64,000 nt of DNA. It comes from Affinundibacterium baiyunense (GTDB taxonomy: Bacteria; Pseudomonadota; Gammaproteobacteria; Burkholderiales; Burkholderiaceae_D). Under the pieces are notes generated by a model. That model was not told the DNA's origin. It saw only the letters and a program-made list of their open reading frames with translations, and searched no databases. The translations under genes were made by a program, and so were the position numbers. The stretch lies in the NCBI RefSeq assembly GCF_018139645.1, contig NZ_JAGSPM010000005.1, positions 235,984 through 299,983 on the forward strand, written 5' to 3'. Of the stretch, positions 30,099 through 41,843 are shown piece after piece; position 1 is the stretch's first letter, and every line of letters begins with the position of its first letter.

Positions 30099-30142
30099 TT
30101 GTCCGGTATGAGTACTAGTGCAGCTTGACCCGCATTTCTTGA
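30099..30142 (+). promoter_or_regulatory. sequence blocks shared with the MerR-gene leader
   Basis: TTGTCCGGTAT (30099-30109) and CATTTCTTGA (30133-30142) both recur exactly, and in the same order, before the MerR-type gene (33113-33123 and 33129-33138). Spacing between blocks is 23 bases here and 5 there. A common regulatory role is inference. Confidence 0.45.
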
Positions 30143-30201: not shown

Positions 30202-31824
30202 ATGTCTTACAGCGTTGTTTGGTTCAAACGCGATTTGCGCTTGCATGATCATGCCGCTTTGTTTGAGGCGGCATCACGCGGCCCTATCCTTTGTTTATAT
30301 GTTGTCGAACCAGACCTGTGGCAGCAAGCGGATGCAGCGCGCCAGCATTTTGAGTTCATCCTAGAGAGTTTGCGTGATCTCTATGTGGAATTGAAACAGC
30401 ACGGCGGTCGTTTGCAGGTCGTGACTGGCGATATGTTGGAAGTGTTACAGGCTTTGCATGAACGAGCGCCTTTTCACAGTTTGTATGCGCATGAAGAAAC
30501 GGGTAATGCTTGGACTTATCAACGTGATTTGGCGGTTGGGCGATGGTGTCGTACTCAACAAATTAATTGGTTAGAGTTCCGACAATTTGGCGTGGTGCGG
30601 CGTTTGGCTGATCGTGATCATTGGAAGGCAAGTTGGGACGCTCACGTTGAGCAAAATTGCTTGCCTGTGCCGGCACAATTGCAGTTCGTGGATATGCCGT
30701 GGCAAGATGCGTTGCCGCCTTCTGCTGATCGACTTCATTTGCACCAAGCTGATACGCCACGTCGGCAGCGCGGTGGGCGTCAAGCGGGTCTTGCTGTATT
30801 GTCGTCTTTCTTACTTGAACGTAGTGCCTATTATCGTGGTGGAATTTCCTCTCCCTTATCAGCGCCAGATGCTTGTTCTAGGCTGTCACCTTATTTGACG
30901 TTTGGCTGTTTAAGCTTGCGTGAAGTCGTGCATGCGACGGTACAGCGTATGGAGCAACTGCATGAGGATGCGGTCATGTCGCTTCATCCATCCGCGGGAC
31001 GAATGAAGCAGGGTCTAAATGCTTTTATTAGCCGGCTGTACTGGCATTGCCACTTCATTCAAAAATTGGAATCAGAACCCGAGATTGAATATCAAAATAT
31101 GCATCGTGGTTACGATGGTTTGCGCGAGCAGGATTGGAATGAAGCCCATTTTCAAGCACTCATTCAAGGTCGTACAGGTTGGCCTATGGTCGATGCCTGT
31201 ATCGCCATGTTACGTGAGACTGGCTGGATTAATTTTCGTATGCGCGCGATGTTGGTCTCCGTCGCGTCCTATCCGTTGTGGTTAGATTGGCGGCGGGTTG
31301 GTACTTGGTTGGCGACGCAATTTATCGACTATGAGCCGGGTATACATTGGAGCCAAATGCAAATGCAAGCGGGTACTACAGGTATCAATGTGCCACGCGT
31401 ATATAACCCAATTAAACAAGCGCATGATCATGATCCGAAAGGCATCTTTGTGCGACGCTGGTTGCCGGCGATGCGTAAAGTACCTGATTTGTTTTTGTTT
31501 GAACCTTGGACTATGCCAGCAGATGTCCAAGCTGCATGCGGCATACAGCTTGGACGAGAAATTCCTATTCCCGTAGTTGATCTAGATGTCGCGACACGTG
31601 AAGCAAAAGCAAAACTATTTGCAGTGCGTGGACAAGCGGAAGTGAGGGCAGCGAAATCAGCGGTAGTAAAGAAACACGGGTCACGTAATACACGTAGCGC
31701 ACCTAAATTACGCAGCGCAGGAAGTGCAAAGCGCGTAGGAAAATCGACTAAACGAGTAAAACAGCAAGACGCCGGTTCGACCAGTGATATCGAGCAAGCG
31801 CCGCAGCTGGGGTTTGATTTCTAA
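30202..31824 (+). CDS. cryptochrome/photolyase-family flavoprotein with basic C-terminal tail
   Basis: A 540-residue member of the photolyase superfamily, blue-light flavoproteins that repair UV lesions or act as photoreceptors. The N-terminal Rossmann antenna domain begins VVWFKRDLRLHDHAAL. The FAD domain shows LSPYLTFGCLSLREV, GWPMVDACIAMLRETGWI, FRMRAMLVS and the late RVYNPIKQ. It is not the DASH or FeS-BCP type, both of which are encoded nearby. Residues about 455-534 form a Lys/Arg/Ser-rich tail absent from standard photolyases, and the last six residues QLGFDF look like a sliding-clamp-binding hexapeptide. It ends 37 bases before a convergent gene. Confidence 0.88.
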   Translation: MSYSVVWFKRDLRLHDHAALFEAASRGPILCLYVVEPDLWQQADAARQHFEFILESLRDLYVELKQHGGRLQVVTGDMLEVLQALHERAPFHSLYAHEETGNAWTYQRDLAVGRWCRTQQINWLEFRQFGVVRRLADRDHWKASWDAHVEQNCLPVPAQLQFVDMPWQDALPPSADRLHLHQADTPRRQRGGRQAGLAVLSSFLLERSAYYRGGISSPLSAPDACSRLSPYLTFGCLSLREVVHATVQRMEQLHEDAVMSLHPSAGRMKQGLNAFISRLYWHCHFIQKLESEPEIEYQNMHRGYDGLREQDWNEAHFQALIQGRTGWPMVDACIAMLRETGWINFRMRAMLVSVASYPLWLDWRRVGTWLATQFIDYEPGIHWSQMQMQAGTTGINVPRVYNPIKQAHDHDPKGIFVRRWLPAMRKVPDLFLFEPWTMPADVQAACGIQLGREIPIPVVDLDVATREAKAKLFAVRGQAEVRAAKSAVVKKHGSRNTRSAPKLRSAGSAKRVGKSTKRVKQQDAGSTSDIEQAPQLGFDF

Positions 31825-31861
31825 ATTCTCATGTTGAAAATCGGGCTCTAAGAAATTTGGT

Positions 31862-32152
31862 TCAAAAATCCCGATTCTTCTGATCACGCGATTTAAATCG
31901 CTTTACCTCATCGCTGCGCAAAGCTTGATGTTTTGTTTTGCGTCCAGCCACGCGGCTACGCCACATTTTGAAGCTCGATGCTTTCATCGACTTACGCATT
32001 AGTCGAATCACTGCACTTTCGTTCAAGCCAAATTGGCGTTGGATGGCGTCGAAAGTGGTGCGATCTTCCCACGCCATTTGTATCACTCTATCGATGGTAG
32101 CTTGATCGACGGTAGCGTTGTTCATAGCCGCTTGATAAATTGTTGACGTCAT
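31862..32152 (-). CDS. DUF2805 / TIGR03643 family protein
   Basis: A 96-residue protein matching the TIGR03643 family: VIQMAWEDRTTFDAIQRQFGLNE then VIRLMRK and FKMWRSRVAGRKTKH, with a basic C-terminal tail. The first half looks like a helix-turn-helix of the type seen in small DNA-binding proteins. Function is unknown, but the family commonly occurs next to photolyases and related light-response genes. It starts 3 bases after the stop of the HiPIP gene, so the two are probably translated from one mRNA. Confidence 0.82.
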   Translation of the reverse strand: MTSTIYQAAMNNATVDQATIDRVIQMAWEDRTTFDAIQRQFGLNESAVIRLMRKSMKASSFKMWRSRVAGRKTKHQALRSDEVKRFKSRDQKNRDF

Positions 32153-32155
32153 GGT

Positions 32156-32467
32156 TTAGGCTTTCTTTGTCCATGCCATGCACCAGCCTTTTGCAGAGAC
32201 TTGCTTGTTACCTAAGGCGGCACAATCTGCCCATGCGTCTGTTGCTTTACCTTGATACAACATGCAGTTAGCGCAATTTTTTCCAGCCGCATACGCAGGA
32301 AATTTTTTGGCGTCCACTTTACTTGCGTCATGTTTATAGCCAAGAGCAACTGAACCGGGCGCTGCTTCATCGGCGCGATTTGCTTGAGCATTGACCTTGA
32401 GTGCGGCTCCCAAACCTAAGGCAGCGGGAACGGCTTGAATTAAAAATTGACGACGTGATTTCATCAT
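32156..32467 (-). CDS. Tat-exported high-potential iron-sulfur protein (HiPIP)
   Basis: A 103-residue periplasmic electron carrier. The twin-arginine signal SRRQFLIQ is at residues 4-11, with cleavage expected near NAQA. The mature part has the four [4Fe-4S] ligands Cys65, Cys68, Cys82 and Cys96 in the HiPIP spacing (NCANCMLYQG...DCAA...GWCMAW). HiPIPs work at high potential between cytochrome bc1 and oxidases or reaction centres. It is translated with the DUF2805 gene and is near photolyases, but a Tat-exported protein would not meet cytoplasmic flavoproteins directly, so any link is probably by shared regulation. Confidence 0.93.
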   Translation of the reverse strand: MMKSRRQFLIQAVPAALGLGAALKVNAQANRADEAAPGSVALGYKHDASKVDAKKFPAYAAGKNCANCMLYQGKATDAWADCAALGNKQVSAKGWCMAWTKKA

Positions 32468-32524
32468 GAATTCCTTTTTAGATAATGTAGTTAATTGATT
32501 TGATTCTCGGTACTGCTTAGTTGA

Positions 32525-32962
32525 TCAAAATTGGCGATCAATTTTTTCGCCAACTGGCTTGCGCCAAAGCGGTCGAAACTTTAGAAAGACGTGGTACAAA
32601 TTATCTAACAAAGCAATTACCCAGCGCCTTTCGAGTAAGGGCGTGGCCCATTGAAGGGCAGGCAATTGTCGCCACATCAAAATAAATGCAGCCGCTCCTG
32701 ATACAAGTTGTCCCGTTTCATCACGTGCATGCAATTTGTTGAGCGCTTGTTGTCGATTGAGTTGTGTTCCTAGCTCGATTTCTTCGCAGCGGCTTGCATC
32801 TATCCATTCAATTTTGTCAGCGCCTCGCCATGTTTGGTAGGTGGCGATTTCTTTCGCACACAAGGGACATGTACCATCGAAATAAACTGTGCAAATTGGC
32901 TTTGCTGCTTGTTTTTCGTAGTGCATATTTATTTGTATTGGCGCGTTTTTCATTGCTGTCAT
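32525..32962 (-). CDS. DCC-family thiol-disulfide protein (DUF393)
   Basis: A 145-residue member of DUF393, named after the DxxCxxC motif, here FDGTCPLC with Cys32 and Cys35. The fold is thioredoxin-like and a redox role is assumed, not shown. The C-terminal half holds the usual WATPLLERRWVIALLDNLYHVFLKFRP block with a short amphipathic or membrane-associated helix. No signal peptide is seen. It is divergent from the MerR-type gene, with 219 bases between them, and is the first of three minus-strand genes with HiPIP and DUF2805. Confidence 0.87.
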   Translation of the reverse strand: MTAMKNAPIQINMHYEKQAAKPICTVYFDGTCPLCAKEIATYQTWRGADKIEWIDASRCEEIELGTQLNRQQALNKLHARDETGQLVSGAAAFILMWRQLPALQWATPLLERRWVIALLDNLYHVFLKFRPLWRKPVGEKIDRQF

Positions 32963-33032
32963 TGTTATCGCTGCGAAGTTGCGTGAGATTTTTGATAATG
33001 AATTATTGACTTATCCTGTTTGATATAGAGTA

Positions 33033-33138
33033 GTCCAAAACGGAAATGATGTCCAATAAGTGAACCGTTAAAACTTGTGTTATGATGATTTTATTCGGTT
33101 CAATATCGGTTCTTGTCCGGTATTTTGTCATTTCTTGA
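33033..33138. promoter_or_regulatory. candidate operator region between DUF393 and MerR-type genes
   Basis: Several short repeats crowd this gap: GTCCAA at 33033 and 33051 (starts 18 apart); GAACCG at 33062-33067, then its inverse CGGTTC at 33096-33101 and 33107-33112 (11 apart, about one helical turn); and TATGAT at 33081-33086 as a possible -10. The blocks TTGTCCGGTAT and CATTTCTTGA are shared with the photolyase leader at 30099. This pattern suits binding by the MerR-type protein, but that is inference. Confidence 0.45.
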
Positions 33139-33181
33139 ATCAGTTCTTTTTCGATCAATTTGCTAAAAAAGTGGGTGAACT

Positions 33182-34225
33182 ATGAATAATCAAACAGTAA
33201 AGTCGGCCGCCAATGAGGCGAATGCCACTTATCGCAGTGGTGCTGCAGCGCGTTTGTCAGGTGTTCCTGTGGAGACTTTACGTGTGTGGGAGCGGCGCTA
33301 TGGCGTGACAGACCCAAGTCGCTCAGAACGTGGTCAGCGGCAGTATTCATTTGAGGATGTGCGGCGTTTGGGTCTGATCAAGCAATTGGTTGATGCCGGC
33401 AATTCGATTGGTGCGGTGGCGCATCTTGATTTGCAACAGTTACTGGCGATGTTAAGCGCGGTGGCAAATTTGCCTGCGGCAAAATCGCAAGTACAACTCA
33501 GTAATGGTATGTTGAGAATTGCGTTGGTCGGCGTGATGTTGCGCCAATCTTTGATTAATCTAGATCCAGATCAAAGCAAATTGAGCTTGGTGCAAACTGC
33601 CTTCAATTTGAAACAAGCACCGATGCAGTTGAAGGATGTCAAAGTCGATGTGATGGTAGTCGAACAAGGTGAATTGACTGCACCAGAAGAACAAATTCCA
33701 CTCTTAGGATTAGCTCAACAAGCTTGTCAGGCAACAGCGGTACTTATTCTGTATCGATTTGCATCAAGTGACGCGATTCGTCAATTGCGACTTGCAGGTT
33801 TTCATGTTGCACGCATTCCCGCTGACATGCTCGAAATAGACCATCTATGCCGCGTTGCAATGGCGCGCGCACTGACGCTCGCCGAGCAACAGGGGCGCAT
33901 GGGCCGCGTGAAGAAAAATGGCATGCGACCAGTTGATGCCGCTCGAAATAAGAAAAGCAATTTAATCCCAGCGCGTTTGCTCGATGATGAACACTTAACG
34001 CACATCGCCAAATTTGCCACGAGTATTCACTGCGAATGTCCTCGTCATCTAGTCGACTTGCTGCAAATGCTGACCAGTTTTGAACGCTACAGCGCGCAAT
34101 GTGAGAACCGTAACGAAGAAGACGCAAGTCTGCATCGCGATTTGCATTACACAGCGGCGCATGCACGTTCTGCGTTAGAGCAAGCTTTAGTGCGCGTCGC
34201 GCAGGCAGAGGGCATTCAGTATTGA
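33182..34225 (+). CDS. MerR-type transcriptional regulator with non-canonical sensory region
   Basis: A 347-residue regulator. The winged-helix MerR domain spans about residues 17-85 (GAAARLSGVPVETLRVWERRYG and RQYSFEDVRRLGLIKQLV), as in LitR/CarH light regulators. Residues about 110-235 look like a Rossmann-type fold, but the cobalamin-binding histidine motif and the four-helix W/EH module of CarH are not seen. The last 80 residues are helical with CECPRHLVDLLQML and ERYSAQC (Cys284, Cys286, Cys307). It sits between divergent light-island genes and heads the transcript with DUF2256 and two photolyase genes, so control of the island is likely. The signal it senses is unknown. Confidence 0.82.
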   Translation: MNNQTVKSAANEANATYRSGAAARLSGVPVETLRVWERRYGVTDPSRSERGQRQYSFEDVRRLGLIKQLVDAGNSIGAVAHLDLQQLLAMLSAVANLPAAKSQVQLSNGMLRIALVGVMLRQSLINLDPDQSKLSLVQTAFNLKQAPMQLKDVKVDVMVVEQGELTAPEEQIPLLGLAQQACQATAVLILYRFASSDAIRQLRLAGFHVARIPADMLEIDHLCRVAMARALTLAEQQGRMGRVKKNGMRPVDAARNKKSNLIPARLLDDEHLTHIAKFATSIHCECPRHLVDLLQMLTSFERYSAQCENRNEEDASLHRDLHYTAAHARSALEQALVRVAQAEGIQY

Positions 34226-34252
34226 AATTGAATATTCTCGAGAAAGCGCGTC

Positions 34253-34450
34253 ATGAAAATGCGTAAAAAATCGGATTTACCAAGCAAGCTATGTGAAGTC
34301 TGTGGTTTATCTTTTGCTTGGCGTAAGAAGTGGGAAAAAGACTGGGCTTCAGTCAAGTATTGCTCTGAGCGTTGTCGTCGAGCACGGCCTAGCGCATCGG
34401 TGAAAAATTTAACTAGCAATTCTGCAATCGCCTCGGTAAAGCACATATGA
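34253..34450 (+). CDS. DUF2256 zinc-ribbon protein
   Basis: A 65-residue protein of the DUF2256 family, with a treble-clef/zinc-ribbon-like set of cysteines at 14, 17, 37 and 41 (LCEVCG and YCSERCRR) and conserved FAWRKKWEK between them. Function is unknown; the family is very often encoded beside cryptochromes and photolyases, sometimes fused to them. Its stop overlaps the DASH cryptochrome start by 4 bases (ATGA), showing translational coupling. Confidence 0.85.
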
Positions 34451-35835
34451 AAAAACTAGTTGTTTATTGGTTTCGAAATGATCTTCGAGTTGAAGATAAT
34501 CCGGCATTAAATGCTGCCTGTGCATACGCGCAGCGTACGGGAGCGCAATTGCTTCCGCTGTTTTGTCACACCTCTGCGCAAGGCACTTTGCATGTCGAAC
34601 AAACGCAGTGGGGTTTTGCGCGTTTATCGGCTCATCGTCGATATTTTTTGCGCGATAGTTTGTTAGATTTACGCGAGCAGTTGCAGCAGTTTGGATTTGA
34701 ATTGATGGAATTGGAAGGAGAACTAAGCGCGCAATCAGCATTTTTGGCGGCACTCGCGCAAACGTATACGCTTCAGACCTTCTTTTGCGAAGATATCGCG
34801 GCACCAGAAGAGCGCGCGCAGGTAGATGCTGTGCGGGCATTGCAGATCGATGTGCAAGCAGTATGGCAATCGACAATGTACGATCCGACATCGTTCGATT
34901 TCGACATAACGCAGATGCCAGATCAGTTCACGGCATTTCGACACAAGATAGAACACGCGGCATATCCGATACGCCAAGTAGTATCATGTGCACTCTCTGC
35001 ATCGTTCGCATTGCGTGACGCCACATTAGAAAAATTTTCTGTGCATTTGAGTAAGCAAAGCCAGCCTCAACTTGACGCCCTTGACGATGTTGATACTCAG
35101 GTCATGCATGATATTCACGATGTGCGCAGTTCCTTCCCCTATTTCTTGCCCGAGTTTCGCGGCGGCAGTCGTGCTGCACATGCGCATCTAAAAAACTACT
35201 TCTCTTCTGAGTTGCCACATTCTTATAAACAAACACGTAATCAATTACAGGGTACGCGCTTTTCGACCAAGTTCTCGCCATGGCTGGCGAGTGGTGCGCT
35301 TTCGGCACCGCAAGTGATGGCTGCATTGCGCGAGTTTGAAGCGGAGAAAGGACAAAGCGACAGCACTTATTGGATTTGGTTTGAATTGCTGTGGCGTGAT
35401 TATTTTCGCTATTTGCATTGCAAGTACGGCGTGCGGCTGTATCGTGCCAGCGGTTTATCAAAACTACCCGTCGATTTGCCTGCTTTTGATGCGCAAAAAT
35501 TTCAAGCGTGGACGCAATCGATGACGGGTGAGTCTTTGATTGATGCTGCCATGCGTGAGCTGACCAGTACTGGGTATTTATCGAATCGCCTGCGTCAGCA
35601 AGTCATCAGTTATTGGCTGCATGAGTTAGGTGGTGATTGGCGCGTTGCTGCTGCTTGGTTTGAATCGCAATTGCTTGATTACGATGTGTACAGCAACCAA
35701 GGAAATTGCTTGTACTTGGCGGGTTTAGGAACCGATCCTCGCGGCTATTTAGGCGGGCGTTGGTTTGATCCGAAGAAGCAAGCAAAACAGCATGATGCAG
35801 ACGGAAGTTATCGAACACTTTGGAACTCACGGTAA
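34447..35835 (+). CDS. DASH-type cryptochrome / photolyase
   Basis: A 462-residue Cry-DASH protein, a blue-light flavoprotein known to repair single-stranded or loop-exposed cyclobutane dimers. It starts [21 protein letters not shown]-specific blocks are QSTMYDP with [42 protein letters not shown], and [17 protein letters not shown]. The late [18 protein letters not shown] is the DASH FAD-domain end. It is coupled to DUF2256 upstream and lies 8 bases before the FeS photolyase gene, so the whole group reads as one operon. Confidence 0.94.
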
Positions 35836-35843
35836 ACCAAATC

Positions 35844-37391
35844 ATGAACAACAATCAGCAACCCGCGCATACCTTGCGCCTGATCTTAGGTGATCAGTTA
35901 AATTCACAACATAGTTGGTTTGCGCATCAGCAAGACGATGTGTTGTACGTGATGATGGAGGTGCGTCAAGAGACGGATTATGTGCTGCATCATGCGCAAA
36001 AGATCATCGCGATCTTTGCTGGCATGCGTGAATTTGCGCGCCGTTTGCAGTTGGCAGGACATCGTGTGCATTTCTTGACGATAGATGATCCAGACAATCT
36101 GCATGCGATTCCAGCCAATATTGAGAAACTAGCGCAAATGGTGCAAGCGCAAGAATTTCAATATCAAGCGCCTGATGAATATCGTTTGGATCAACAGTTA
36201 CAGATATTTGCGCAAACCACGGCCTTGCGTTGCTATATGTTTGATAGCGAACACTTTCTAACGCAGAGAGAAGAAGCGGGAAAGATTTTTGAAGGTCGCA
36301 AGAAATGGTTGATGGAACATTTCTATCGACAAATGCGGGTCAAATATCAGGTGTTGATGACGGGGCAAGATCCCACTGGCGGTGCATGGAATTTTGATCA
36401 CGATAATCGTAAAGCATGGTCAGGATTGCCGTGGGAACCAGAAGATTTTCGACCACGCCACGATCACAGTGCCTTGTGGGAGACGATACAAAATGCGGGC
36501 GTGAAAAGTTTTGGCGAACCCAATGCCAGCGAATTTGCATGGCCTTTACACCGTGACGAAGCCTTGACGCAATTGCAGGCCTTCGTGCGTTTGGCATTGC
36601 CACATTTTGGTGATTTTCAAGATGCGATGAGTAGCAAGGCATGGCGTTTATTTCACTCGCTGTTGTCGTTCGCATTAAACGTCAAGATGCTAAGCCCGCG
36701 CGAGGTGATTGCCGCGGTAGAAGCGGCGTACTCACGTGGCGAAGTATCGATTGCCGCCGCCGAGGGATACATTCGACAAATCCTCGGTTGGCGGGAATAT
36801 GTGCGTGGCGTGTATTGGCATTTCATGCCCGATTACGCGCAAGAAAATGCGTTTGATCATCAAGCTGAATTGCCGACGTGGTTTTGGACCGGCAAGACCA
36901 AGATGCGCTGCCTATCGCATGCGATTGGACAATCTTTGCAGCAAGCGCATGCACATCATATTCAACGCTTAATGGTGATCGGCAATTTCTCGCTGCTAGC
37001 TGGTTTGCACCCACAGCGTGTTCACGAGTGGTATCTCGGTGTGTATATCGATGCGTTTGAATGGGTGGAATTGCCGAATACTTTGGGCATGAGTCAGTAC
37101 GCTGATGGTGGTGTGTTAGCGACCAAGCCCTATGTATCGAGCGCCGCTTACATTGATCGCATGAGCGATTATTGCAAGGGCTGTCAGTACGATAAAAAGC
37201 AGCGCACCACCGAAAATGCTTGTCCGTTCAATGCGCTATATTGGGATTTCTTCTCACGCAATGAAAAACAATTGGCGAGCAATCCACGCATCGGTATGGT
37301 GTATCCGCAGTTACGAAAAATGAGCGCAGAAGCAAGGCAGGATTTGAGCGAACGAGCGATTTATTTGCGTCAGAATTTCGATGCGCTATGA
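35844..37391 (+). CDS. iron-sulfur bacterial cryptochrome/photolyase (FeS-BCP)
   Basis: A 515-residue member of the FeS-BCP class, whose known members (Agrobacterium PhrB, Rhodobacter CryB) bind FAD, a lumazine antenna and a [4Fe-4S] cluster, with (6-4) photoproduct repair shown for PhrB. It begins TLRLILGDQLN. The four cluster cysteines are Cys356 (KMRCLSHA), Cys444 and Cys447 (DYCKGCQYD), and Cys460 (NACPFNALYW), exactly the PhrB spacing. ATG 35844 is chosen over an upstream TTG that would overlap the DASH gene. The next gene overlaps its stop by 4 bases. Confidence 0.95.
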   Translation: MNNNQQPAHTLRLILGDQLNSQHSWFAHQQDDVLYVMMEVRQETDYVLHHAQKIIAIFAGMREFARRLQLAGHRVHFLTIDDPDNLHAIPANIEKLAQMVQAQEFQYQAPDEYRLDQQLQIFAQTTALRCYMFDSEHFLTQREEAGKIFEGRKKWLMEHFYRQMRVKYQVLMTGQDPTGGAWNFDHDNRKAWSGLPWEPEDFRPRHDHSALWETIQNAGVKSFGEPNASEFAWPLHRDEALTQLQAFVRLALPHFGDFQDAMSSKAWRLFHSLLSFALNVKMLSPREVIAAVEAAYSRGEVSIAAAEGYIRQILGWREYVRGVYWHFMPDYAQENAFDHQAELPTWFWTGKTKMRCLSHAIGQSLQQAHAHHIQRLMVIGNFSLLAGLHPQRVHEWYLGVYIDAFEWVELPNTLGMSQYADGGVLATKPYVSSAAYIDRMSDYCKGCQYDKKQRTTENACPFNALYWDFFSRNEKQLASNPRIGMVYPQLRKMSAEARQDLSERAIYLRQNFDAL

Positions 37392-37675
37392 CTATAAAAA
37401 GTGAGGTAAAAATGCATTCTCCAAATCAAGCGCAATTACAAATAAGAGATCGTCCAGTTCAACTGAATCCCAAAAAGCTTTTGCTGACGAAATGGACAGC
37501 GGTAAAGGTAATCGCCAAGCAAAAACATTGTTTGGTCAGCCGCGTGCTGCAACCTGAAGACTTGAGTTTACCGATTACTGAAATCGAGATGGAAGCAGTT
37601 TATTCCGGTAATAAACAAATCATCGCTTGGCGAGAATTGCAAGATGCCGAACGCTGGAAGCAAGGTTGGCTTTGA
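37388..37675 (+). CDS. TIGR02450 family Trp-rich small protein
   Basis: A 95-residue protein matching the small Trp-rich family: NPKKLLLTKWTAVK, HCLVSRV, and ELQDAERWKQGWL. Function is unknown; members are often near photolyase or DUF2256 genes. The ATG overlaps the FeS-BCP stop (ATGA), so it is co-translated; an internal ATG eight codons later is an alternative start. It ends the light-island operon before a stretch of repeats. Confidence 0.8.
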   Translation: MTIKSEVKMHSPNQAQLQIRDRPVQLNPKKLLLTKWTAVKVIAKQKHCLVSRVLQPEDLSLPITEIEMEAVYSGNKQIIAWRELQDAERWKQGWL

Positions 37676-37687
37676 TGTGTGTTTTAT

Positions 37688-37769
37688 GTAGGGCGGGTGC
37701 AACCCGCGCGGTCGAAACGTGGTGCAACCGTGATCGGTGTATGTGCGGCGCGGGTTGCACCCGCCCTAC
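37688..37769. repeat. perfect 22-bp inverted repeat (GTAGGGCGGGTGC family)
   Basis: The left arm 37688-37709 (GTAGGGCGGGTGCAACCCGC start) is an exact reverse complement of 37748-37769, around a 38-base centre that contains a partial copy (GGTGCAACC). It starts 13 bases after the TIGR02450 stop and could also end the transcript. It looks like an intergenic repeat element; no other copy is in the window. Confidence 0.8.
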
Positions 37770-37842
37770 AAACTAAAGCGCTAGTTTTATTTCTTCCTTT
37801 TTAGGGTATAGGTATTTATATATGTTCAGATTTGGTTGGTCA

Positions 37843-38008
37843 CTCCTTCTCCCGCAAGCGGGAGACGGCTGGGATGAGGGCAGTTCAGATTGACGAAATA
37901 CATATTTAAATGCCGCGTTCTGTATTTAGAGCATATGTAGTCGATACGTTGTTTTCGCTTGTTAATCTCCCTCACCCCAACCCTCTCCCGCTTGCGGGAG
38001 AGGGAGTG
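37843..38008. repeat. inverted pair of REP-like elements (second locus)
   Basis: The left copy (37843-37880) has CTCCTTCTCCCGCAAGCGGGAG and ends GATGAGGG; the right copy (37968-38008) starts CCCTCACCCC and contains CTCTCCCGCTTGCGGGAGAG. This is the same facing-pair layout as at 10660-10819. The whole gap 37676-38112 holds only repeats; I see no gene in it. Confidence 0.8.
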
Positions 38009-38112
38009 TTATTGGAACTCCGACTTGTTTAGATGCATGTCCCTTGAACGGGCGGAATTCCAAGTAAGCATCCCCAAATAATTTAGTTTTTATTTCGACA
38101 GAGGCCCATCCT

Positions 38113-38814
38113 ATGCAATGTCACTCTTTCCCAGAACAATTTCGCGCATGCGTGATCGGTGCGAGCGGTGCAATCGGTGCAGCATTTGTCAGTGCCTTGC
38201 AGCAAAATCCACGCTGCGCGGAGGGCGTCGCATTGCATCGACACTCAGATCCCGCAATCGATTTAACTGATGAGGCCAGCATACAAAACGCGGCAGAACA
38301 GATCAAAGCACAAGGACCGTTTCATTTGATTATTCACGCTGCTGGTATTTTGCATCAGCAAGAATTTATGCCCGAGAAAAAATTAGGCGACTTGAACATG
38401 GCGCAAATGCAAGCGACCTTTATGGTGAATACTTTTGGCCCTGCAATTGTACTGCGACATTTTTCCAAGCTGCTCGATAAACAGCGCGGTGTATTCGCGC
38501 TGCTTTCGGCGAAAGTAGGTAGCATAGAAGACAATCGCCTCGGTGGTTGGTATAGCTATCGCGCATCGAAAGCGGCATTAAATATGATGATCAAAACCGC
38601 CGCGATAGAAATTAAGCGAACCCAGCCCAACGCGATCGTCTTTGCGCTGCATCCTGGTACAGTCAACTCGGCATTATCCCAACCTTTTCGTGGTGCAGAG
38701 ATTGGTCGATCCGCCGAGCAAGCAGCGCAAGAAATGTTAGAGGTGATCGATCGCCTACAAGCCGAAGATCACGGGAGCTTTTTGAGCTACAAAGGAGAGC
38801 GCTTGCCGTGGTAA
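38113..38814 (+). CDS. C-factor-like short-chain dehydrogenase (SDR)
   Basis: A 233-residue SDR related to the CsgA/C-factor group. The cofactor motif is IGASGAIGAAFV (residues 15-26), with HAAGIL, and the catalytic Ser-Tyr-Lys is seen in LLSAKVGSIEDN and YSYRASKAA. The group is commonly encoded with cryptochromes and photolyases in proteobacteria, which fits this place; the substrate is unknown. It is separated from the photolyase operon by two repeat elements, so it may be expressed on its own. Confidence 0.83.
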   Translation: MQCHSFPEQFRACVIGASGAIGAAFVSALQQNPRCAEGVALHRHSDPAIDLTDEASIQNAAEQIKAQGPFHLIIHAAGILHQQEFMPEKKLGDLNMAQMQATFMVNTFGPAIVLRHFSKLLDKQRGVFALLSAKVGSIEDNRLGGWYSYRASKAALNMMIKTAAIEIKRTQPNAIVFALHPGTVNSALSQPFRGAEIGRSAEQAAQEMLEVIDRLQAEDHGSFLSYKGERLPW

Positions 38815-40525: not shown

Positions 40526-41488
40526 TCAATCCTCAAAACTAGCCAACTGTTGACGCTGGCGATTCACTACCAAACGCGTAATATCGGGTCGAGAATAATG
40601 TCCAGCAACATCAAAATTCTGCCGTTCACGCCGAACGTGATTTTTATCCAAAGTCGCAATCAATAAACACTCTTGATCAACTACAGGTTCAACAACCCAG
40701 CTACCATCTGGCGCAGCGATACACGAACCACCATTCGCCAAGACATCGGGGCAACGCGCCAAAATCAGATCCAGATGCGGAGTATCCACCGGAAAATCCT
40801 GCTTGCGCATTAAGCCCGATACGGCAATACTAAAACTACGGCCTTCCTTCGCAATAAAGCGAGTTAGGTCTTCGGTATTGCGCAAATTGCCAGGCCAAAT
40901 TCCCACATGCAAATCTTCTCCTTGTGCATACAAGGCAGCACGCGATAAAGGCATCCAGTTTTCCCAACAATTCAAACCACCTACAGTAAAACCATCCAGC
41001 GCATGCGTACGCAAGCCATGTCCATCACCCGCCGCCCAGGTCAGGCGCTCTTCGTAAGTCGGCATCAATTTTCTATGCACCGAGCCAATCACACCATCAG
41101 CGCCGATGTACACGCAAGAGCAATACACGCTATAACCCGTGCGATCTTTCGGACGCTCCAAACAGCCGAGCATGATCGCAATCTGATACTGTTTCGCCGC
41201 CGCACAAAATGCATCAAGATCACCTGCCTCAATATCCACCCCTTGCTGCACATAATGCGCATGCAAATCCTTTTGCACCTCATCATTAAAACGCGCACCA
41301 TCGGTCAGATCCAACCAAAACGGATAACCGGGCAATAAAGTCTCACCAAAACAAACCAAGCGCGCACCTTGCTGTGCGGCTTGCTGCACGTAATTAAGCA
41401 TCTTGGTGGTGGTGGCGATGCGGTTGAGCCAGACGGGGGCGATTTGGGCTAGGGCGACGGTGATGTGGTCTTGGTGATTGATGATCAT
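40526..41488 (-). CDS. nitrilase-family hydrolase
   Basis: A 320-residue carbon-nitrogen hydrolase of the nitrilase branch, converting nitriles to acids and ammonia. The catalytic triad is Glu49 (CFGETLLPGYP), Lys140 (HRKLMPTYEER) and Cys174 (GLNCWENWMP), the last block being typical of true nitrilases and cyanide hydratases. ATG 41488 gives the family start ITVALAQIAPVW; the frame is open to 41596 but that would run into the ParE-like gene. Native substrate is unknown. It lies downstream of the toxin-antitoxin pair on the same strand. Confidence 0.92.
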   Translation of the reverse strand: MIINHQDHITVALAQIAPVWLNRIATTTKMLNYVQQAAQQGARLVCFGETLLPGYPFWLDLTDGARFNDEVQKDLHAHYVQQGVDIEAGDLDAFCAAAKQYQIAIMLGCLERPKDRTGYSVYCSCVYIGADGVIGSVHRKLMPTYEERLTWAAGDGHGLRTHALDGFTVGGLNCWENWMPLSRAALYAQGEDLHVGIWPGNLRNTEDLTRFIAKEGRSFSIAVSGLMRKQDFPVDTPHLDLILARCPDVLANGGSCIAAPDGSWVVEPVVDQECLLIATLDKNHVRRERQNFDVAGHYSRPDITRLVVNRQRQQLASFED

Positions 41489-41549
41489 GAGAATATTTGT
41501 GAGATAGCGTGGAAGGAGAATGTTGAATGGTGAAAGTCTCAATCTAAAT

Positions 41550-41843
41550 TTAATCTTGATAGCCAGCTTCGCGGTGATGCCGAATTGCCAGAACAAGAAT
41601 CACATCATCGATTTCTTCAAAACTGTATAACCCAACGTAGCCAGTATTGCCACGTGAAATCACTAACTCGCGTAATTCATTTTTGATAGGGCGACCAATC
41701 AGAGGATGATGCTCCAGTAGCGAAATAGCTTCTTGAATTAAATCGACGGTTTGTAAAGCGATGTTAGGATCACTGTCAAATAAAAAATCAACGAGTCGTT
41801 CGAGATCATCAAGCGCCCGTTGTGAATAAATTATGCGCGCCAT
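41550..41843 (-). CDS. RelE/ParE-family toxin
   Basis: A 97-residue ParE/RelE-superfamily protein: YSQRALDDLERLVDFL, HHPLIGRPIKNELRELVI, and VILVLAIRHHREAGYQD. ParE toxins poison gyrase, while RelE types cut mRNA on the ribosome; the sequence style and the RHH-type partner favour ParE. The gene overlaps the antitoxin end by 13 bases, the normal order of antitoxin first, toxin second. Confidence 0.88.
   Translation of the reverse strand: MARIIYSQRALDDLERLVDFLFDSDPNIALQTVDLIQEAISLLEHHPLIGRPIKNELRELVISRGNTGYVGLYSFEEIDDVILVLAIRHHREAGYQD

Follow-up and report, generated by a model that had tools for sequence, protein, structure and literature searches.

A photolyase apparently of a class of its own, with a predicted clamp-docking tail, in a loosely kept LitR-type photorepair island of Affinundibacterium baiyunense

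In Affinundibacterium baiyunense, a stretch of 64,000 bp (contig NZ_JAGSPM010000005.1, positions 235,984 to 299,983; referred to below as the window, to which all positions refer) carries three genes of the photolyase superfamily together with a MerR-type regulator gene and several small genes. This raises the question whether the island is one light-response module, and what kind of protein its first photolyase gene, here called PHR1, encodes. Our analysis indicates an ordinary photorepair regulon of the LitR type whose genes are only loosely kept together; what is new is a class of photolyases, delimited by sequence comparison, with a conserved, predicted clamp-docking tail. PHR1 and the parts of its tail are located as follows:

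30202..31824 (+): PHR1, a flavoprotein of the photolyase/cryptochrome superfamily with 540 aa (PF00875 and PF03441)
31687..31803 (+): linker of the PHR1 tail, variable, basic, and predicted to be disordered, about residues 496–534 (low model confidence, low conservation)
31804..31821 (+): predicted C-terminal beta-clamp-binding motif QLGFDF, residues 535–540 (conserved among homologues)

A scan of a genome collection revealed at least 592 relatives of PHR1. The best 80, which were fetched, stem from Beta-, Alpha-, and Gammaproteobacteria, in addition to records that carry other labels, e.g., Cyanobacteria and Verrucomicrobia; many are metagenome-assembled genomes. Comparison with curated class models placed PHR1 below the cut-off of every class that it matched, namely DASH (TIGR02765, 161.3 vs. 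317 bits, E 3e-47), NF007955 (143.6 vs. 506), TIGR03556 (127.8 vs. 884.6), plant cryptochrome (130 vs. 604), and phr2 (48 vs. 550). Thus, it belonged neither to the class I cyclobutane pyrimidine dimer (CPD) photolyases (NF007955, TIGR03556) nor to CRY-DASH, its top-ranked curated class, for which it reached half the cut-off. The 48 members of our alignment of the class (A3) matched only the same five curated models, with best E-values of 9e-53 for TIGR02765 and 1e-56 overall; since 161 bits correspond to E 3e-47, no member comes near a class cut-off. Searching the PDB with the A3 profile gave 217 bits for 6kii (DASH-like), 213 for plant CRY2, 209 for 1np7, 207 for class III, 206 for animal-like CRY, 202 for insect (6-4), and 201 for E. 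coli class I proteins, with lower scores for 1owl (class I, 184), Arabidopsis DASH (166–170), and 1iqr (136). The AlphaFold2 (AF2) model of PHR1 displayed a confident photolyase fold with a predicted local distance difference test score (pLDDT) of 88.9, and the 50 PDB matches shown by Foldseek had 19–25% identity. The best of these was the class III CPD photolyase PhrA (4u63), although its identity was 24% and the profile score for this class was no better than for others. No match of PHR1 to PF04244 was found at E ≤ 0.001; FeS-BCP, the prokaryotic (6-4) photolyase (7ykn, 4dja, 3zxs), is a frequent operon partner of PHR1 from a different branch. Based on cut-offs and profile scores, PHR1 looks like a broad bacterial class of its own without a curated or close solved member.

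In regard to its residues, PHR1 shares with the class I CPD photolyase E. coli Phr (1dnp) the two-domain fold as well as W277 and W359, preserved as W281 and W363. It differs in four positions of a printed alignment (E274 by R278, N341 by F345, N378 by H382, and the proximal W382 by M386), so that the class I residues E274, N378, and W382 are all replaced, and in the additional tail with the clamp motif. We take the numbering of E. coli Phr to omit the initial methionine and likewise assume the roles of these residues. The histidine equivalent to N378, at the position facing N5 of the flavin, was found in all 86 aligned PHR1 members that have a residue there. Since these active-site residues are altered, the flavin pocket appears non-canonical, and the chemistry of PHR1 may differ from that of canonical photolyases.

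The tail of PHR1, whose presence but not its C-terminal motif had been noted originally, revealed pLDDT values below 50 at residues 508–519 and 521–540. In A3, the column majority fraction was 0.12 for the linker (residues 501–534), 0.61 for the core, and 1.0 for Q535, the last value being flattered because A3 excludes 10 of 57 representatives, three of which lack the motif. The 81 measurable linkers had a median length of 19 residues and a median net charge of +4, which was positive in 80 of them. For the motif itself, a set of 94 complete PHR1 proteins was used, consisting of 75 of the best 80 (five run off their contig) and 19 family members, not all of which are independent (loci L076 and L168 look like one contig). 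With the loose pattern Q-x-x-[LFMWI]-(x)-[LFWIV], 86 of the 94 proteins had the motif within their final 14 residues, compared to 2.2% of shuffled last-40 tails and 49 of 1743 other frames (2.8%), and 89 had it within their final 30, compared to 5.6% of shuffled tails and 124 of 1743 frames. These background frames had at least 150 residues and came from the same loci after removal of the PHR1 frames (including them, 6.4% of 1818 frames matched). Every one of the 19 family members had a motif-like C-terminal end, e.g., QMTLGF, QLTLEF, or QVALF. Among the 89 motifs, the second position was L in 50 and the fourth L or F in 85, the Q being fixed by the pattern. In 14 homologues with exactly QLGFDF, more than one codon was used at each of the six positions; this synonymous variation therefore fits selection on the residues and not recent copying. 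Outside PHR1, the pattern occurred in 0 of 20 DASH, 1 of 32 other photolyase-family, and 1 of 44 MerR frames, and in none of the other small families.

The usual picture of photolyases is that of free enzymes reaching lesions by diffusion, and translesion polymerases and mismatch repair share one clamp pocket. In its predicted-disordered tail, PHR1 carries the feature that characterizes clients of the beta sliding clamp, the motif Q-x-x-L-(x)-F within a disordered segment. DNA polymerase IV of the same organism ends with EQLPLF, and the motif is missing on the class I, DASH, and FeS-BCP proteins of the same genome. Validated clamp clients include Pol II (QLGLF), Pol III alpha (SEQVELEFD), Hda (QLSLPL), and the phage-display ligand LQLELDF (PMC11139829). 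The PHR1 motifs closely fit the published clamp rule and these validated ligands, two of them, QLSLPL and QLDLF, exactly (PMC11139829). Like PHR1, Pol II, Pol IV, and Hda have a disordered terminus that bears a short Q-x-x-hydrophobic motif; unlike PHR1, they are polymerases or initiation regulators, and the partner-table parts of PMC11139829 list no photolyase. Among the matches listed from a search of the open-access literature, with subscription journals mostly outside, we found nothing, judging by title and beginning of the abstract, on a photolyase docking on the sliding clamp, and in the open-access literature, with the same restriction, nothing on a photolyase together with a clamp-binding motif; the available part of the photolyase class survey PMC9498864 contains no word beginning with 'clamp'. 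Altogether, the C-terminal motif of PHR1 is very probably a clamp ligand. That repair by PHR1 is coupled to replication through clamp binding is a step further, which we hold only slightly more probable than its opposite.

Plasmid records contained 36 PHR1 relatives at the E-value limit used, and seven of 16 examined had the C-terminal motif, namely those of Tritonibacter, Duffyella (QLDLF), Marinobacter, Novosphingobium, Pseudoalteromonas THAF3, P. piscicida, and Pseudorhodobacter. On Deinococcus plasmids, a PHR1-class photolyase is fused to a uracil-DNA glycosylase (L194, 4001–6256; L201, 2989–5262; L237, 1489–3771; L241, 1474–3753), with QPNLF at the joint in three of them. The fusion of D. 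gobiensis rests on the open frame, because the annotated start falls inside the photolyase part. The joint motif may belong to the glycosylase part, as Deinococcus UNG presumably begins in a similar way.

Turning to the island as a whole, open frames and family matches agreed with all ten genes and families that the original prediction had placed between 30202 and 38814. Apart from PHR1, these are:

31862..32152 (-): DUF2805/TIGR03643 protein, all-helical, possibly helix-turn-helix (HTH)-like (120 bits)
32156..32467 (-): HiPIP, an iron-sulfur electron carrier (PF01355, 79 bits)
32525..32962 (-): DUF393/DCC1-like thiol oxidoreductase (PF04134, 68 bits)
33182..34225 (+): LitR/CarH-type MerR regulator without recognisable B12 domain (PF13411, 65 bits)
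34253..34450 (+): DUF2256, a small putative zinc protein (PF10013, 74 bits)
34447..35835 (+): DASH cryptochrome, with Cys for the expected proximal Trp (TIGR02765, 399.1 vs. cut-off 317)
about 35844..37391 (+): FeS-BCP, a prokaryotic (6-4)-type photolyase (PF04244, 239 bits)
37388..37675 (+): DUF2389/TIGR02450 Trp-rich small protein (Pfam 54.5, over cut-off)
38113..38814 (+): C-factor-like short-chain dehydrogenase/reductase (SDR), probably a transcription unit of its own (PRK09009, 186, cut-off 330)

Both 4-base overlaps seen earlier, DUF2256/DASH at 34447–34450 and FeS-BCP/TIGR02450 at 37388–37391, were confirmed. The DASH score clearly assigned that gene to its class, and the FeS-BCP assignment is based on the PF04244 domain and four cysteines, which aligned with those of the best solved relative, 7ykn, over nearly the full length (E 1e-153); we take these cysteines to be the cluster ligands. 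Two identities were less firm: the Trp-rich protein reached the Pfam model DUF2389 but scored slightly below the TIGR02450 cut-off (34.7 vs. 36.85), and the SDR missed that of the C-factor-like model PRK09009. A fourth photolyase, class I-like, is encoded on another contig (C87) of the same genome. The 0.44 kb between TIGR02450 and the SDR contain hairpin-like repeats, by eye two elements at 37680–38010 (gcgggtgcaacccgc and ccctctcccgcttgcgggagaggg). Since the SDR gene lies behind these repeats and PHR1 is a separate unit, the layout suggests at least three transcription units around merR. Neither a tRNA gene nor an Rfam match reaching the gathering score was found in the window.

For the regulation of these genes, the MerR protein and two sites in the window are candidates:

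30099..30109 (+): TTGTCCGGTAT, candidate operator half-site before PHR1, common to the merR promoter (three exact copies in the genome, two of them here)
33096..33123 (+): candidate MerR operator CGGTTC-N5-CGGTTC, an 11-bp direct repeat that continues into TTGTCCGGTAT and lies between DUF393 and merR, which are divergent

The HTH domain of the MerR protein was closest in the PDB to CarH/LitR (best 5c8d and 3whp, then 2jml), placing it in that branch. A B12-binding domain gave no Pfam match at E ≤ 0.001, so that class I of LitR/CarH does not apply. CarH itself uses 11-bp repeats. CGGTTC-N5-CGGTTC occurs in one exact copy in the whole genome, at merR, and upstream of 22 of 40 MerR homologues, some of them close kin, we detected GGTTCA-N5-GGTTCA with an 11-bp period when one mismatch per half was allowed, the motif having first been noticed in three of these promoters. 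Other spacings (7–10 and 12–15) were found in 0–2 of the 40 promoters, and mononucleotide shuffles gave a mean of 0.28 and a maximum of 3. Thus, an 11-bp direct repeat upstream of the regulator gene, as in CarH-type operators, was seen in this group. The exact extended operator revealed 20 sites in 12 of 116 genomes against six sites of the reversed control, and 10 of the 20 precede merR-type genes, one of which is a short frame. In L207, L213, L214, and L223, the repeat also adjoins a gene for a small exported protein, recognised by eye as fasciclin-domain-like, which is likely a further regulon member. A one-mismatch search in the own genome was rejected as a means to define the regulon there, since it gave eight sites against 46 in the reversed control. 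The sharing of TTGTCCGGTAT between the PHR1 and merR promoters is weak, as about two chance copies are expected in 4.27 Mb, the count with one mismatch was equalled in two of 100 shuffles of the window, and the similarity was spotted only afterwards. Upstream of merR and PHR1 in the window, TGTACA, the class II element, was not found.

Altogether, the MerR protein resembles the LitR/CarH light regulators (classes I–V) in its HTH kinship, in the candidate operator at its own promoter, and in its photolyase-type neighbors; it differs from them in the missing Pfam B12 domain and in having a GGTTCA 11-bp repeat instead of the class II element TGTACA-N12-TGTACA (PMC9758184). LitR regulons of Pseudomonas include phr, cry, SDR, and FAD oxidoreductase genes (PMC9758184), and in Vibrio cholerae a MerR gene beside phr is required for part of the blue-light response (PMC5241685). 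Due to the kinship of the MerR protein with LitR/CarH regulators, light control of the island is probable, and the operator repeat might serve as a handle on LitR-type regulators without B12. Of the suggested coordinated module around a regulator, the CarH/LitR-like HTH protein is indeed present in the island; the gene set, though, is not one conserved unit.

This became clear from a survey of 116 genomes of the bacterial family, in which single families were sought at one sample size, and from the neighbors within 3 kb of the best 80 PHR1 loci, whose counts are lower bounds as some contigs end sooner. DUF2256 was found near 35 of these loci, FeS-BCP near 31, DASH near 18 (19 by script, minus L168, a class I-like protein), and MerR near eight. 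The other families were rare, with DUF2805 at five, DUF393 at four, TIGR02450 at three, and HiPIP and SDR at two loci each. In the 116 genomes, DUF2256 gave 47 matches over the cut-off, 28 of which (counted by hand) shared their contig with a photolyase-family match no more than about 2 kb away, and in a 29th case (G091) FeS-BCP fragments adjoin. The adjoining photolyase was FeS-BCP, DASH, PHR1, or a more divergent one. DUF2805 was present in 10 of 116 genomes and adjoined a photolyase in two. Hence, the claim that the small families are linked to photolyases stands for DUF2256 and not for DUF2805, TIGR02450, HiPIP, DUF393, and SDR.

The ten-gene island was intact in none of four congeners, and none of them has DUF2805. 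In G085, PHR1-DUF2256-DASH-FeSBCP lie together, and a different contig carries MerR-HiPIP-SDR; G063 and G104 preserve DUF2256 and FeS-BCP with DASH reduced to a remnant; and G032 possesses DUF2256 and FeS-BCP. Since the gene set is scattered in close relatives, which the original prediction had itself named as refuting, the strict module around one regulator fails, and what is left is a loose regulon. Its conserved core, PHR1-DUF2256-(DASH)-FeSBCP, recurs in shuffled order. Judging from gene order, this core looks split in the window by the divergent block of MerR and DUF393-HiPIP-DUF2805. In one genus, a very divergent photolyase-family gene (FAD domain about 91–95 bits) was observed between the MerR/DUF2256 end and DUF393-PHR1 (L054, L055, L058, and L060, at about 7.8–12.1 kb).

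We regard it as fairly probable that the window encodes a photorepair regulon inducible by light, with a repressor of the LitR/CarH type and with a clamp-tethered PHR1 as a member; clamp binding, function at the fork, the lesion substrate, and light induction are inferred. In the dark, the repressor would sit on its 11-bp direct-repeat operator between the two divergent operons DUF393-HiPIP-DUF2805 and merR-DUF2256-DASH-FeSBCP-TIGR02450, and light would derepress them. The disordered basic tail would tether PHR1 to DNA-bound DnaN and thereby concentrate its light-driven repair at and behind replication forks and at gap-filling sites, alongside FeS-BCP for (6-4) lesions and DASH for lesions in single strands. 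On balance we lean slightly towards the wider view that PHR1 founds an unrecognised, widespread class of clamp-tethered photolyases whose flavin pocket departs from the canonical one in that His faces N5 and the proximal Trp is missing. Photorepair by this class would be linked to the clamp and, in the case of Deinococcus, also to the removal of uracil from deaminated dimers by a built-in glycosylase. If true, direct reversal by light would be tied to the replisome beside translesion polymerases and mismatch repair, and competition with, or precedence of photoreactivation over, translesion synthesis at the fork would become testable; the Deinococcus fusion suggests the immediate removal of uracil uncovered by dimer repair.

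Several observations weigh against this view. Five of the 94 complete proteins lack the motif (L141, L155, L165, L166, and L183), as do five of the 16 plasmid homologues (Vibrio pelagius, Vibrio THAF191d, Salinivibrio, Pseudoalteromonas xiamenensis, and Persicobacter), so that a Vibrio/Persicobacter-type group of the class has no motif. The loose pattern was also found in two of 25 FeS-BCP frames, and the joint of the fourth Deinococcus fusion (QL22) reads HPTLF without Gln. E274, N341, N378, and W382 of canonical photolyases are missing, and because of these replacements the repair activity of PHR1 is not assured. On the side of regulation, the repeat was not seen in 18 of the 40 homologue promoters, the copy in the window is imperfect, and only one congener, G085, kept both PHR1 and MerR.

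The replacement of E274, N378, and the proximal Trp together with the invariant His at the N5-facing position would also fit a PHR1 without repair activity that is bound to the clamp, senses light or redox conditions, and reports the ultraviolet (UV) or flavin state to the replisome. We consider this unlikely, as the fusion to uracil-DNA glycosylase in Deinococcus and the (6-4) photolyase neighbors point to repair, and the equivalents of W277 and W359 are preserved. Still less probable is a mere accumulation of ordinary light-repair genes under known LitR-type control, with PHR1 as another CPD photolyase. The Pseudomonas regulons, which also comprise an oxidoreductase gene (PMC9758184), and the Vibrio cholerae MerR-phr pair (PMC5241685) do set precedents for such control, and a UV-B-inducible two-photolyase operon is published for Synechococcus PCC 7335 (PMC9649867). 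However, PHR1 lies outside every curated class, most solved classes score about alike with its profile, its flavin and substrate residues are remodelled, and the conserved clamp motif is found on it and not on the class I, DASH, and FeS-BCP proteins of its own genome.

It is very improbable that the motif signals sorting or degradation or binds some other protein, e.g., DUF2256 or FeS-BCP, and is no clamp ligand. Its place at or near the extreme C-terminal end is where protease tags are found, and DUF2256 is encoded near many PHR1 genes; against this, Gln and the pentamer/hexamer spacing obey the published clamp rule (PMC11139829), the motif also occurs at L186 and L172, where the fetched flanking DNA contains no DUF2256 gene, and it is internal, not terminal, in the Deinococcus fusions. 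Little credence is left for all ten genes as one functional module with the small proteins as folding, redox, or chromophore factors for photolyases, since DUF2256 does recur beside FeS-BCP, DASH, PHR1, and the divergent photolyase type, but the five other small families seldom lie near photolyases.

Returning to the preferred reading of a loosely kept photorepair regulon, some of its members revealed further peculiarities. At the proximal Trp, the DASH protein of the window reads GNC, compared to GNW in 27 of 29 frames in which our script located that stretch, with GNT in one other. Between DUF2256 and FeS-BCP of the congeners G063 and G104, a remnant of DASH with 49–59 residues was left (L092, 7563–7739; L093, 7846–7992). 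From the Cys-for-Trp exchange and these remnants, DASH seems to be decaying in this genus. As for DUF2256, it is a member of the Pfam TRASH clan (PMC4047054), and nothing joining it with a photolyase was found in the open-access literature, subscription journals lying mostly outside the search. The AF2 model of the DUF2805 protein had a pLDDT of 67.8 with a non-significant best Foldseek match (E 1.3), a mere hint of an HTH. Its best PDB profile match, ribosomal L7/L12 (E 0.054), was judged to be chance.

Distant photolyase-like matches with 25–29% identity were observed in four phage records labelled Listeria (OR848149, OR846718, OR848178, and OR846764), which possibly represent host DNA. Past the island, a nitrilase-like amidohydrolase frame was recognised by eye at 40526–41596 (-).

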